64,000 nucleotides of DNA. Source: Bacillota bacterium. Its GTDB lineage: Bacteria; Bacillota; Clostridia; Oscillospirales; Oscillospiraceae. Positions 43,499 to 51,273 of this stretch are shown piece by piece. The first letter of the stretch is position 1; every line of letters begins with the position of its first letter. The notes under the pieces were generated by a model that saw only the letters and a list, made by a program, of their open reading frames with translations, ran no database searches and was not told the DNA's origin. Both the position numbers and the translations under genes were made by a program. The stretch lies in contig JAETOJ010000001.1 of assembly GCA_021768085.1 (NCBI GenBank), positions 62,001-126,000 of the forward strand. Reading direction: 5' to 3'.

Positions 43499-44755
43499 CT
43501 ATTCCTCTCGGCGCTCCACTGACGCGCCCAAGGCCTGGAGCATCCCCTCCAGCCCCTCGTAGCCCCGGTCAATGTGCCGCAGGCCGGACAGCACGGTGGT
43601 TCCTTCCGCGCCTAAGGCCGCCACGGCCAGCGCCCCGCCGCCCCGCAGGTCGGTGGCCTCCACCCTGGCTCCCCGGAGCTGCTCCACCCCCCGCACCAGG
43701 GCCACCCGCCCCTCGGTGGTGATGTCCGCCCCCATACGGATAAGCTCAGGCACATGGCGATAGCGGCTGTCGAACATGGTCTCCACAAAGAGGGTGCACC
43801 CCTGAGACGCCGCCAGCGCCGCCATGACAGGGGCCTGGGCGTCGGTGGGGAAACCGGGATAGGGGGCAGTGCGGATGGTGGGCACACCCTTCAGAGGCAC
43901 CGCCCTGTCCCGAACCAGCTCCACGTACTCCAGCCGGCTCTCCACCCCGCACCCGGACTGGTGGAACACGGATAAAACGGTGGCCAGATGCCGCCAGTCC
44001 ACCCCCCTCAGCCGCACCCGCCCTCCAGCGGCGGCCGCGGCGGACAGCAGGGTGGCCGCCACAATCCGATCTCCCATGACAGTGTATTCCCCGCCGGACA
44101 GGGCGTGGCCCCCCTCCACCGTGACGGTGGAGCTGCCCGCCCCCCGGACGTTTGCCCCCAGCTGGTTCAGAAAGCTCTGGAGATCCCCGATCTCTGGCTC
44201 CCGGGCGGCATTGGTGATGGTGGTGGGGCCGTCCGCCCCCACGGCGCACAGCATGGCGTTCTCCGTAGCCCCCACACTGGGCATGGCAAGCTGGATCTCG
44301 CCCCCTCGGGGCCGCCCCTGGCAGTGGATGCCCCGATTCTCCGTCACCTCGCACCCCAGGGCGCGGATGGCGGACAGATGCAGATCGATGGGCCTGGGGC
44401 CCAGCTCGCATCCTCCGGGATAGGTCAGGTGGGCCTCCCCCATCCGGGCCAGCAGCGGGCCCAGAAAGATGATGGACGAACGCATGGCCCGCATCTGCTC
44501 CTCGGAGATGGAGCAGCCGGTTGCCCCGGCAGGATCTACGGTGATGATGTGGCCCTCCTGCTCCACCCGGCAGCCCAGGCGGCGCAGGATGGACAGGGCG
44601 GCGTCCACGTCTGTAAGCCGGGGGCAGTTGTGGAGCGTCACCGGCCCCCGGGCCAGCAGGCAGGCCGCTAAAATGGGCAGCACGCTGTTCTTCGCCCCGT
44701 GGACGGCCAATTCGCCCTTTAGGGGGCCGCCCCCCCGAATATACATCACGCTCAT
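43499..44755 (-). CDS. murA: UDP-N-acetylglucosamine 1-carboxyvinyltransferase
   Basis: The first committed enzyme of peptidoglycan precursor synthesis, 418 residues. K22-N23 in G-A-K-N-S and the active-site cysteine C116 in P-G-G-C-E-L-G-P-R-P are present, the latter being the fosfomycin target. T-D-A-Q-A-P near 305 is also conserved. ATG 44755 follows GGGGAGG. It lies between murG and ftsQ. Firmicutes often have a second murA elsewhere. Confidence 0.96.
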   Translation of the reverse strand: MSVMYIRGGGPLKGELAVHGAKNSVLPILAACLLARGPVTLHNCPRLTDVDAALSILRRLGCRVEQEGHIITVDPAGATGCSISEEQMRAMRSSIIFLGPLLARMGEAHLTYPGGCELGPRPIDLHLSAIRALGCEVTENRGIHCQGRPRGGEIQLAMPSVGATENAMLCAVGADGPTTITNAAREPEIGDLQSFLNQLGANVRGAGSSTVTVEGGHALSGGEYTVMGDRIVAATLLSAAAAAGGRVRLRGVDWRHLATVLSVFHQSGCGVESRLEYVELVRDRAVPLKGVPTIRTAPYPGFPTDAQAPVMAALAASQGCTLFVETMFDSRYRHVPELIRMGADITTEGRVALVRGVEQLRGARVEATDLRGGGALAVAALGAEGTTVLSGLRHIDRGYEGLEGMLQALGASVERREE

Positions 44756-47315: not shown

Positions 47316-48302
47316 CTAAATTGCGTACCGATACATCACGCCCACAAAGGCCAGCAGGCAGAAGGCAATGGTGATCCCCGTGAAGGTGAGCACGATGCGC
47401 ACCTCGCTCCAACCCCCCAGCTCCAAATGGTGGTGGAGGGGGGCCATGCGGAAGATCCGCTTGCCGTGGGTGAGCTTGAAGTAGCCCACCTGGATGATGT
47501 CGCTCATGGTCTCCGCGATGTAGACGATCCCCACCAGCACCAGCACCAACGGCACGTCCAGGGCAAAGGCCATGGCGCACACCGCGCCGCCTAAAAACAG
47601 GGAGCCCGTGTCCCCCATGAACACCTTGGCGGGGTGAAAGTTATACAGCAGGAAGCCCAGCAGCCCCCCGCCCAGCGCCCCGGCGAACACGCCTACCGCC
47701 CCCATCTCCCACCACTTGGACAGGACAGCGAAGAACACGCACACCGCCAGCGTCACCGAGCCCGCCAGCCCGTCCAGCCCGTCGGTGAGGTTGACGGCGT
47801 TGACGCAGCCCACCATGACGAAGGCGGCGAACACCAGATACACCCCCCAGGTCAGGGTCAGCTCCACGTTGAAGAAGGGCACGTACAGGGTGGGGGACAA
47901 AATCCCCTGCCACCGCAGCAGGGCCAGGAAGGCGATGGCCGCCGCCAGCTGAAGCAGGAACTTCCAGCCGGCGGTGAGGCCGGTGTTCTCGTGCTTGCGG
48001 ATCTTGGCGTAGTCGTCCACAAAGCCGATGGCCCCGCACACCAGGGCGAAGGCCAGCACAAACAGCGCCTGCCAGTTCCCCGCCGCCATGTCCCGCCAGC
48101 CGAAGGCCGCCACAGCGATCACCACCGCCACAATGAACATGATCCCCCCCATGGTGGGGGTGCCCTCCTTGTTTTTGTGCCAGTTGGGGCCGATCTCTTT
48201 GATGGACTGGCCCGCGTGCAGGGCCCGCAGGGCGGGTATGAGCACCCATCCCACCGCCGCCGAGATCGCGAACGCGGCCAGCGCCGCCAACAGTATCCGC
48301 AT
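47316..48302 (-). CDS. mraY: Phospho-N-acetylmuramoyl-pentapeptide transferase
   Basis: A 328-residue polytopic enzyme (ten helices) that makes lipid I. Conserved acidic motifs are F-V-D-D-Y-A-K near 102 and N-L-T-D-G-L-D-G-L near 180. The loop M-G-D-T-G-S-L is followed by the histidine motif P-L-H-H-H-L-E-L near 295. It follows the Mur-ligase-like remnant by 33 bases and is followed by the dispersed repeat, then ftsW. Confidence 0.97.
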   Translation of the reverse strand: MRILLAALAAFAISAAVGWVLIPALRALHAGQSIKEIGPNWHKNKEGTPTMGGIMFIVAVVIAVAAFGWRDMAAGNWQALFVLAFALVCGAIGFVDDYAKIRKHENTGLTAGWKFLLQLAAAIAFLALLRWQGILSPTLYVPFFNVELTLTWGVYLVFAAFVMVGCVNAVNLTDGLDGLAGSVTLAVCVFFAVLSKWWEMGAVGVFAGALGGGLLGFLLYNFHPAKVFMGDTGSLFLGGAVCAMAFALDVPLVLVLVGIVYIAETMSDIIQVGYFKLTHGKRIFRMAPLHHHLELGGWSEVRIVLTFTGITIAFCLLAFVGVMYRYAI

Positions 48303-48335: not shown

Positions 48336-48866
48336 TCACTGTTCCAGCCGGGCCGCCGCCTCCTTCAGCGGCACCCCCAGGGCCAGCGCCCCCGCCAGGG
48401 CCGCCAGGTGGTCGTACAGCCGGGGCTCCTCCCCCGCGCTCACCCGCACCCGCAGCAGCTCCGTGCCCGCCAGAGCCTCGAACTCCAGCCGATCCCCCCG
48501 CAGGCGGACGTTCTTCGCCGTCAGATCCGCCTGGGGCCTGCCGTCGGAGTAAGCATACACCTCGCCGCCTCCCGCGGCGGCGAACCGTCTTCCCTCCGGG
48601 TCGTCCAGGCCCACCACCGTCACCCCTGCCCGGCGGGACAGCTCCCACCGGGCGGCGGCGCAGCCGCTCAGCCCCCCGGGGGACGGGGGCAGGTCATAGT
48701 TTTCCACCACCACCGCCCGGCAGCGTCCCTCATAGAACGCCGCCTGACAGGGGGTAAGCTCCACCACCGGGTTGGGCAGCAGGCGGCGCAGGAGCTGGGC
48801 CGTCATCGTCCCGCCCCGACCTACCACCGCCACCGGCGCCTCCCTACTGCCGCTGATCGTCGCCAT
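48336..48866 (-). CDS. Degenerate Mur-ligase-like protein (catalytically dead remnant?)
   Basis: A 176-residue protein in the position where murE/murF normally stand. Residues 12-26 align with the Mur ligase P-loop, but G-T-N-G-K-T-T reads G-R-G-G-T-M-T (16-22), so the catalytic lysine is lost. Further on, V-V-G-L-D-D-P-E-G corresponds to the N-A-D-D-P motif of MurE. L-Y-D-H-L-A-A-L-A-G-A-L-A-L-G-V matches the end of the central domain. The UDP-sugar-binding N-domain and the C-terminal domain are missing. It overlaps the transpeptidase gene by 23 bases and is otherwise an intact frame, so it may have a non-catalytic role. Confidence 0.72.
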   Translation of the reverse strand: MATISGSREAPVAVVGRGGTMTAQLLRRLLPNPVVELTPCQAAFYEGRCRAVVVENYDLPPSPGGLSGCAAARWELSRRAGVTVVGLDDPEGRRFAAAGGGEVYAYSDGRPQADLTAKNVRLRGDRLEFEALAGTELLRVRVSAGEEPRLYDHLAALAGALALGVPLKEAAARLEQ

Positions 48867-51273
48867 AGTTAATACTGCTCACAAATCGCACCTCCACTAC
48901 CGTGCCCAGGGCCACCATGGCCCCTTCATCAATGGATTGGCTGGCCCACACCACGTCGGGGTCGTTGTAGTCTACCACACCAGTGGCCCGCATAAAGAGG
49001 CCCAGCTCCTCCAGCTTATTCTTGGTCTGGGTGGGCGTCAGCCCCACCAGGCTGGGCACCGCCACCTGCTCCGTGGGCGCGTCCTCCCCCAGATAGAGCA
49101 CCACCGTGGAGCCGCCGGGGATGGACGCCCCCGCCGCCGGCACCTGTCCCTGCACAATGCTGCCCGTGCCCACCGTACGGCACTCAAAGCCCGCCTTTTG
49201 CAGATTGCCCTTGGCCACCGTCAGCTCCTGGCCGGTCACCTTGGGCATTGGGGTGTCCGGTCCGGCCAGCTCGCCGTCGGAATACTGCCGCTCGATGCCC
49301 ATGTAGTCCAGAATGCCCGCGATGAGCTGGCCCGCCATGGGGGCGGCGATATTGCCGCCGCTGATATAGGTACCCGCCGCCGTCACATTGGATCCGGGGG
49401 CAGAACGCTTGGGGGTGTCGTACACCACCAGCGCCAGCAGCTCGGGATCGTCCGCCGGGGCAAAGCCCATGAAGGAGCACATCACGTCGTCGTTGTTGGG
49501 GTCAATGTTCTTGATGGCGATGTTCTCTGAGGTGCCCGTCTTGCCGCCGATGCGGTAGCCGTTCTGGCTGGCGTTGTGACCCGATCCGTTGGCCACCACG
49601 CTCTCCAGGATGCCCCGCACCTTATCCGACGTGTCCTCGCTGATCACCTGGCGCACCTCGGTGGTCTCATGGTAGAACACAGTGTTCCCATCCCCGTCGG
49701 CGATGGACTGCACCACATAGGGCTGGAGCAGGTGCCCGCCGTTGATGACGGAGGCGAAGGCCATGATCATCTGAAGCGGGGTGACGGCGAAGGTCTGCCC
49801 GAAGGAGGCGGAGGCAATGGACTGCACGCCGGTGGGGCCTTTGAAGGTCTCCTCCTTCCAAAACTGCTGCGTCCCCTCCCCCGCCAGGTCGATGCCAGTG
49901 CTGTCAAAGAGGCCGAAGTCCTCGAAATACTTCCACATGGTATCCGCGCCCAGCCCAAGGCCGATCTTCATCAGCGCCACGTTGCAGGAGTTCTCCACCG
50001 CCTGGGTGAGGGTCTGATCCAGATGGCCCGACTTTTTGTGGCAGTGGGTGGGCTTCAGCCCCGGCCCCGCCGACATGGAGCCGCCGCAGTAGAAGTGGTC
50101 GTTCATGGAAACGGTGCCCTCCTCCAACGCCATCGCCACGGTGATGGGCTTGAACACGGAGCCCGGCTCGTAGGCGTCCGCCAGGGCGCGGTTTCTCATC
50201 TGCTTATCCCAGGCGGCCTTCCACGCGTCGCCGTACTCCTCGCTGTCCTCCCCTTTCTCCGCCGCCACCTCCGCCAGATCCTGCTGTAGATCCTCGTTGA
50301 GGATCTTGGAGTAGTTGTTGGGGTCGAAATCTGGGCTGCTGGCCATGGCCAGCACCGCCCCGGTCTTGGGGTTGATCACCAGGCCGAAGGCCCCGTTCTG
50401 CACGTCGTAGGTCTCGATGCCCTCCTCCAGGGTCTGCTCCAGCATGGCCTGGATCCGCTCGTCCAGGGTGAGGGTCACGTCGCAGCCGTCCTCCGCGTCG
50501 AAGATCATCTCGTAGCCGGAGATCATCTCCATATTTGCGCCGTTCTTGGAGGTCACCACCCGGCCCAGCTCGCCGGACAGCACGTCCTCGTACACCGCCT
50601 CGATGCCCTGGGCGCCCACCTTCCGGTCGCCGCTGTTCTCGTTCTGGGACAGATAGCCCAGCACGTGGGAGCCCACCGAGGAGAAGGGGTAGTACCGCTT
50701 GCTGGAGGGGGTGGGATAGAGCAGGCCGGTGATCCGGTTCTTGCTGGTGAAGGTTCGGACCTTTTCCGCGTCCTCCTCCTCCATCTCGGTCTCCAGCTCG
50801 ATCCAGCCGTTGTCGATCTTCTCCATCTGCTTCCAGAGCCAGTCCTCGTCATAGTCGAAGGTCTCCACCAGCCAATCCACAATGAGCTTCCGCCGGTCGT
50901 AGAGGGCCTGCTTGTAGGCGTCCGGATCCAGCTTCCCCTCCTTGTCCTTGTAGTTCTCCTTCTCCACCGAGTTGTAGAGATCCAGGGGGGACAGGATCAG
51001 CTTGTAGACCGTGGCGGACATGGCCATGGTGCGGCCCTCCCGGTCGTAGATGGCCCCCCGGTTGGCGTTGACGGAGATGCTCTTGGTCTGCTGGATGGCG
51101 GCCTTCTCCTCCCACTGGGCGTGCTCCACGATCTGGAGCTTATAGAGCTGCCCCACCAGGGGGATAAACAGCCCGATCCCCAGCGCCAGCATCAGGGCGA
51201 TGGTGCGCCGGAACAGGCTGCGGTTGCTCCGGCCGTGGTCGCGGCTGCGGGACGTTCGTTTGGGATCCTGCAT
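48844..51273 (-). CDS. ftsI: Class B penicillin-binding transpeptidase with PASTA domains (FtsI/PBP2B/SpoVD type)
   Basis: An 809-residue septal peptidoglycan cross-linking enzyme. An N-terminal membrane anchor is at about 24-45. The dimerisation domain has an unusually charged insert (about 110-170). The transpeptidase motifs are S372-V-F-K375, S-C-N and K578-T-G. Two PASTA domains occupy the last 140 residues. The dcw position indicates a division PBP. SpoVD, its sporulation paralogue, has the same layout, and I cannot tell whether this organism has one or both. ftsL precedes it. Confidence 0.94.
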   Translation of the reverse strand: MQDPKRTSRSRDHGRSNRSLFRRTIALMLALGIGLFIPLVGQLYKLQIVEHAQWEEKAAIQQTKSISVNANRGAIYDREGRTMAMSATVYKLILSPLDLYNSVEKENYKDKEGKLDPDAYKQALYDRRKLIVDWLVETFDYDEDWLWKQMEKIDNGWIELETEMEEEDAEKVRTFTSKNRITGLLYPTPSSKRYYPFSSVGSHVLGYLSQNENSGDRKVGAQGIEAVYEDVLSGELGRVVTSKNGANMEMISGYEMIFDAEDGCDVTLTLDERIQAMLEQTLEEGIETYDVQNGAFGLVINPKTGAVLAMASSPDFDPNNYSKILNEDLQQDLAEVAAEKGEDSEEYGDAWKAAWDKQMRNRALADAYEPGSVFKPITVAMALEEGTVSMNDHFYCGGSMSAGPGLKPTHCHKKSGHLDQTLTQAVENSCNVALMKIGLGLGADTMWKYFEDFGLFDSTGIDLAGEGTQQFWKEETFKGPTGVQSIASASFGQTFAVTPLQMIMAFASVINGGHLLQPYVVQSIADGDGNTVFYHETTEVRQVISEDTSDKVRGILESVVANGSGHNASQNGYRIGGKTGTSENIAIKNIDPNNDDVMCSFMGFAPADDPELLALVVYDTPKRSAPGSNVTAAGTYISGGNIAAPMAGQLIAGILDYMGIERQYSDGELAGPDTPMPKVTGQELTVAKGNLQKAGFECRTVGTGSIVQGQVPAAGASIPGGSTVVLYLGEDAPTEQVAVPSLVGLTPTQTKNKLEELGLFMRATGVVDYNDPDVVWASQSIDEGAMVALGTVVEVRFVSSINYGDDQRQ

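Follow-up and report, generated by a model that had tools for sequence, protein, structure and literature searches.

A putative MurE-derived pseudoenzyme in the dcw cluster of an Oscillospiraceae genus

Introduction

MurT of the MurT-GatD pair is a Mur-ligase-derived protein in another role, which keeps the ATP-binding P-loop and has GatD as its partner. In the passages of one account that treat plant proteins, MurE homologues are a peripheral component of the chloroplast RNA polymerase, and the function of the angiosperm-type MurE is distinct from peptidoglycan synthesis (PMC12681378). In Bordetella pertussis, MurG is reported to bind MurE-MurF, and the sections of the report that deal with this interaction propose a scaffolded complex (PMC6420597). 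Literature searches on MurE or Mur ligase pseudoenzymes and catalytically inactive paralogs, and on murE, division and cell wall in Oscillospir- taxa, found nothing on a protein of the kind described here.

This protein, 176 residues long and encoded in a dcw cluster, resembles each of these systems in part. With the dcw MurE of sister genera (UDP-MurNAc-L-Ala-D-Glu:diamino acid ligase) it shares its slot, the central-domain fold and a sheet with an AD(L)TAKN-type hairpin; unlike that enzyme, it has no working P-loop and no UDP-binding or C-terminal domain, and it has lost catalytic-motif columns. PAP11, the MurE-like chloroplast RNA polymerase subunit (PDB 8r6s and 9epc, both Foldseek matches of our model), uses the MurE fold as a structural subunit and appears to be the best analogue seen; it is, however, a plant protein whose contact is made partly via the C-terminal domain, as far as the relevant passages go (PMC12681378), whereas the pseudoenzyme has lost that domain and stays in dcw. 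The B. pertussis MurE-MurF differs in being catalytically active, and the sections describing it show no dead Mur subunit (PMC6420597). The likeness to MurT extends to a fold match (6fqb) of the model of a related remnant, g114 below, but the MurT-like gene of the genome studied here, as read, lies outside the dcw cluster.

Results

The window analysed is a 64,000-nucleotide stretch of an Oscillospiraceae genome, and its positions are used throughout. The pseudoenzyme is encoded on the minus strand (48336..48866) by an intact frame of 176 codons with an ATG start, and is characterised below by its frame, orthologues, fold and selection. The end of the transpeptidase (PBP) gene (48844..51273, minus strand, from the open reading frame list) overlaps its start by 23 bp, and mraY (47316..48302, minus strand, from the same list and a family model) lies 33 bp downstream, an arrangement that the preliminary description of this locus had correctly noted. 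The dcw gene order reads mraZ-mraW-ftsL-pbp-(pseudoenzyme)-mraY-ftsW-murG-murA-ftsQ-ftsZ, where gene names are our reading of the frames and family models were run only for mraY and the Mur ligases. Outside this slot, the window genome (90.6% complete) encodes six Mur_ligase_M proteins, which we read as MurC, MurD, two MurE-like proteins (MurE1 and MurE2), MurF and MurT.

The short form is present at full length and free of stops in 39 of the 42 genomes of the genus (g1), the window genome included, and the pseudoenzyme is therefore not a chance frame. The other 38 aligned orthologues are 58-95% identical to the window protein. The three remaining genomes comprise G037, where the locus is cut at a contig end, G032, in which no contig could be used for this region, and G013 (94% complete), where pbp and mraY are 30 bp apart and the slot is empty, so that the pseudoenzyme is dispensable in G013.

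By sequence the protein is barely recognisable: Pfam gives no match, and the NCBIfam matches are weak, the best being to MurF (E 8e-4; 18.5 bits, with the cut-off at 288.6). Structure prediction nevertheless bears out the Mur-like character first proposed from the order of its motifs. The AlphaFold2 model (pLDDT 86.6, pTM 0.85) has 93 Foldseek matches in the PDB at E<=1e-3, of which the best 50 are Mur ligases, plastid RNA polymerase chains including the MurE-like PAP11, or cyanophycin synthetase; the best among those listed is 4cvm, a MurF (E 4e-11, TM 0.80 over the query). The predicted fold is that of the central ATPase domain of Mur ligases. The UDP-binding and C-terminal domains had been described as missing, and indeed their columns are 13% and 1% present in g1 and Pfam matches neither.

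Position and descent identify the protein as a MurE orthologue. It occupies the pbp-murE-mraY slot and is closer to dcw MurE than to the Mur ligases of its own genome: a search of that genome with the pseudoenzyme returns only itself at E<=1e-3, while dcw MurEs of the same family match it at 8e-6 to 4e-12. Since sister genera have MurE beside the PBP, an origin from MurF, the best weak NCBIfam match, is ruled out. In sister genera and in the members of other families that we looked at, the slot mostly contains a full-length MurE, and the 176-residue protein is the positional descendant of dcw murE.

The preliminary description had read the P-loop as degenerate, and the alignments agree: residues 16-22 (48801..48821, minus strand) are GRGGTMT, and the loop is also one residue short when aligned to MurE. 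Its lysine is missing in 38 of the 39 aligned g1 orthologues, the exception being locus L030 (G012), GRGKTET, where the lysine is present and the loop spacing is wrong. Judged by its sequence, the pseudoenzyme thus lacks the GxxGK(T/S) loop of a Mur ligase enzyme. The remaining catalytic columns, numbered on the MurE of genome G094, carry residues to which catalytic roles are ascribed; the lysine of the K225 column is carbamylated in MurE. K225, the DNPR residues N408 and R410 and the GKGHE residues K460, H462 and E463 are kept in none of the 39 g1 rows, and H211 is gone together with K225 and the C-terminal domain; of the loop, T120 persists in 38 rows, and E183 persists in 33. Across all degenerate forms (see below), the intact residue at H353, N408, H462 and E463 occurs in 0 of 49 rows, as against 47, 50, 49 and 50 of 50 intact dcw MurEs and all 22 MurE1 sequences. 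H187 was removed from the list of lost catalytic columns, the MurE1 sequences having that histidine in 0 of 22 as well.

Selection was estimated by simple Nei-Gojobori counts on high-GC sequence, with pairs that are not independent. On this basis the median dN/dS in g1 is 0.40 for the pseudoenzyme (624 pairs with 0.05<dS<1, the highest at 0.66), level with the neighbouring PBP fragment (0.405, 656 pairs), and 0.206 for MraY (683 pairs). By region, dN/dS is 0.17 in a three-stranded sheet module, defined from the secondary structure of the model (residues 103-143; 48438..48560, minus strand), 0.40-0.49 in other parts and 0.77 in the N-terminal tail; over 434 pairs the sheet has 0.174 (codon bootstrap 0.094-0.294) and the rest 0.455 (0.359-0.564). 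Within this most constrained part, the hairpin YSDGRPQADLTAKNV (residues 106-120; 48507..48551, minus strand) is the lowest-dN 15-codon window of the pseudoenzyme by codon counts, with a dN of 0.014 at a dS of 1.07. Because synonymous change there is so high, a nucleotide-level element under the hairpin is ruled out. A protein with the fold of an enzyme, without its catalytic residues and kept by purifying selection is a pseudoenzyme, and the 176-residue protein appears to be one; the earlier view of a maintained, non-catalytic relative thus holds up on its intact frames, its dN/dS of about 0.40 and the near absence of amino-acid change in its hairpin.

In the sister clade, intact MurEs show a different distribution of constraint, with dN/dS of 0.364 in the sheet and 0.275 in the P-loop region (90 pairs), the latter region standing at 0.47 in the pseudoenzyme. 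Their lowest-dN windows start near 175, 346 and 204, which we take to be active-site segments, and reach a minimum dN of 0.041; the hairpin window (dN 0.205, dS 0.864, 59 pairs) ranks only 159 of 481. The strongest constraint has thus shifted from the catalytic segments to the hairpin. Within g1, mean identity at the hairpin columns is 0.58 in seven MurE1 sequences and 0.98 in the 39 pseudoenzymes, and in the six genomes that have both it is 0.57 for MurE1 and 0.98 for the pseudoenzymes, so that MurE1 of the genus shows no conserved hairpin of this kind. In MurE1 of other lineages, the A and D of ADL are present in 77% of 22.

A survey of dcw clusters for the short protein and its P-loop, as had been proposed for this locus, found degenerate dcw MurEs beyond the genus. 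Of 89 genera of the family, 80 retain an intact MurE at this position; the other nine comprise seven with a degenerate form (g1, g118, g54, g114, g83, g41 and g74), one with an empty slot (g69) and one that is uninformative, its locus being cut (g78). These counts come from one or two genomes per genus, scored by motifs, with the P-loop waived for g133 (locus cut) and g7 taken as intact at 410 residues. The draw of 400 genomes held at least 106 genera, against 89 in the census; 11 genomes less than 80% complete were dropped, as were 5 of 80 without a mraY match and four more that were left aside (G090 for its contig edge; G178, G179 and G180 as repeats). The degenerate genera were first spotted as short frames (g114, g41, g74, g83), as the best full-length match (g118) or by the census (g54).

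The degenerate forms make up a graded series, of 490 (g54), 463 (g118), 377 and 354 (g74), 326 (g83) and 217-223 (g41) residues, down to 176-192 in g114 and about 176 in g1. From longest to shortest, their Mur_ligase_M scores are 131.5, 80.4, 37, 19.1, 33.1, 13.3, none and none, compared with 180 bits for an intact one, and thus fall with length except that the 354-residue form scores below the 326-residue form. In every degenerate group, the core (30 conserved columns within 237-326 of the G094 MurE) has 96-100% of its columns present and agrees with the intact consensus at 56-93%; for the middle region, the corresponding values are 40-93% and 18-57%. MurE1, as a catalytic control, is 55% identical over the core and 66% over the middle, the opposite pattern to the remnants. 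D240, D241, A265, D266, F281, A283, Y303 and L306 are the commonest residue in every one of the seven groups, and by these alignments the three-stranded sheet module is the best-kept part of each degenerate form. The g114 remnant of G158, also 176 residues, has a predicted fold like that of the g1 protein (pLDDT 88.4, pTM 0.86), in a model that is not independent of g1, whose rows were in the alignment behind it.

Outside g1, the core is better kept in three of four single pairs, including one at 0.27 against 0.54 for the rest. For G158/G228 (g114) dN/dS is 0.51 in the core and 1.13 elsewhere; G118/G205 (g74), at 0.75 and 0.91, is near neutral throughout, and G118/G346, at 0.15 and 0.19, shows hardly any core effect.

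The longest form, the 490-residue dcw MurE at 960-2432 of locus L167 (G098, g54), keeps the P-loop, H211 and K225 and has DDPR for DNPR and GKGCK for GKGHE. It may be either an early dead stage or a ligase of changed specificity; with the P-loop lysine, H211 and K225 retained, its 'dead' status is an inference.

Every genome with a degenerate slot that was searched for a MurE1-type gene has one elsewhere, a set that covers all seven genera and includes all six short-form g1 genomes searched; G013 has MurE1 without the pseudoenzyme. Among genomes with an intact dcw MurE, 1 of 43 checked by coordinates also has a MurE1-type gene (G121, g77; loci L204 and L210), possibly an early stage before degeneration of the dcw copy. 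A Fisher test of MurE1 against slot state ignores kinship, and we give it no weight. In a quick tree supported by SH-aLRT only, a branch with support of 100 separates a clade of 52 dcw MurEs from MurE1, which falls outside in three groups (of 5, 8 and 9), the group of 9 adjoining the dcw clade (97). Since MurE1 lies outside the dcw clade of this tree, its origin as a recent copy of dcw MurE is rejected, and either horizontal gain or ancient paralogy may have been its source. In G113 (g69; loci L159 and L207), nothing occupies the dcw murE slot, and a MurE that belongs to the MurE1 groups lies on another contig, apparently a replacement that left no remnant.

Degeneration of dcw MurE occurred more than once. 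A tree of MraY and PBP requires four changes, a number that stays the same from the 5% to the 95% point of 200 bootstrap trees, and its well-supported branches alone force two. A single ancestral loss in all seven groups is rejected by the AU test (p=0.004), also without g54 (p=0.0076), whereas one origin for g114 and g83/g41/g74 together is not (p=0.093), these last two groupings having been picked after the tree was seen. At least two origins are thus firm, and four is our best estimate.

Discussion

We think it somewhat probable, on sequence comparison, that the pseudoenzyme was kept as a protein-docking module after catalysis moved to MurE1, a distantly related MurE encoded elsewhere in the genome. 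The dcw copy has lost catalytic-motif residues, both the UDP-binding and the C-terminal domain and a large share of the central domain's middle, and what is left is predicted to form a compact module. The dcw MurE would have had two jobs, ligation and docking, of which MurE1 would have taken over only the ligase reaction; the old dcw gene, still beside the PBP and MraY genes, would then have been pared down to docking. As docking surface we suggest the hairpin and sheet, and as their target a second protein of the cytoplasmic machinery for wall precursors or division, with MraY, the PBP tail, FtsW, MurG, MurF or MurE1 as candidate partners. A scaffold role is plausible because the conserved part stands away from the MurE catalytic sequence motifs; a link between the PBP and MraY in particular may be one form of it. 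The preliminary description had the maintained, non-catalytic character right, and its MurNAc-peptide sensor is disfavoured; it missed the dcw MurE identity, the second MurE and the recurrence in other genera. Several observations count against docking: G013 manages without the gene and g69 lost the dcw copy without a remnant; constraint is weak in the g114 pair and in G118/G205, and G118/G346 has no core effect; over the core, MurE1 (55%) is as near the dcw consensus as are the g41 (56%) and g1 (60%) remnants; and the hairpin is partly common to MurE1 of other lineages.

That the protein is a slowly decaying relic without present function, whose core survives only because a compact domain loses it last, seems to us unlikely. 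The empty slot of G013, the graded sizes and the dN/dS values close to one in the non-core parts of g114 and G118/G205 are what such a relic would show, but it accords poorly with full-length frames in 39 of 42 genomes at identities down to 58%, with no pair above 0.66, and with a hairpin dN below that of the lowest window of intact sister MurEs. We give still less credence to a regulatory subunit that forms a heteromer with a live Mur ligase (MurE1, MurF or MurT) and alters its activity. A dead Mur-fold protein would be a natural partner for one, and MurE1 is present in all six short-form genomes searched; nothing, however, favours a Mur partner over MraY, PBP or MurG, and G013 keeps MurE1 without the pseudoenzyme.

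Binding of nucleotide or UDP-MurNAc-peptide by a ligand sensor is very unlikely, even though the P-loop strand and helix are kept in the model and T120 and E183 persist in most g1 rows: the P-loop region is relaxed relative to intact MurE, its lysine is almost always gone, and the UDP domain, H211, K225, the C-terminal domain and most substrate motifs are lost or changed. Least credible is a translated spacer that serves solely to couple translation of PBP and MraY. In its favour, the first in-frame start and the PBP stop overlap in 34 of 38 orthologous loci and in the window; against it, constraint acts on the protein alongside high synonymous change, and G013 and g69 manage without any insert.

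The docking account could be taken further, and we offer this extension tentatively: MurE of this group may have a hidden second function in the sheet and hairpin, split off several times by distant-MurE replacement, each time leaving behind a dedicated subunit without catalytic activity that would arrange the wall-precursor machinery beside MraY and the septal transpeptidase. In effect, the locus appears to offer a natural separation of functions in a cell-wall enzyme that is essential and has been studied intensively. Should the module dock on a partner, it would point to a surface by which MurE may join a precursor complex. Such a question is difficult to address with an active enzyme that the cell cannot do without, and a small, dispensable protein makes it testable.

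Two minor features of these genomes may be recorded. MurE1 and MurE2 are close neighbours on one contig in G003, G013 and G031, and lie on different contigs in G000. In the window, the MurA and FtsQ frames share 74 bp (43499-43572) if the first start codons are used, and the FtsQ start is possibly further in.
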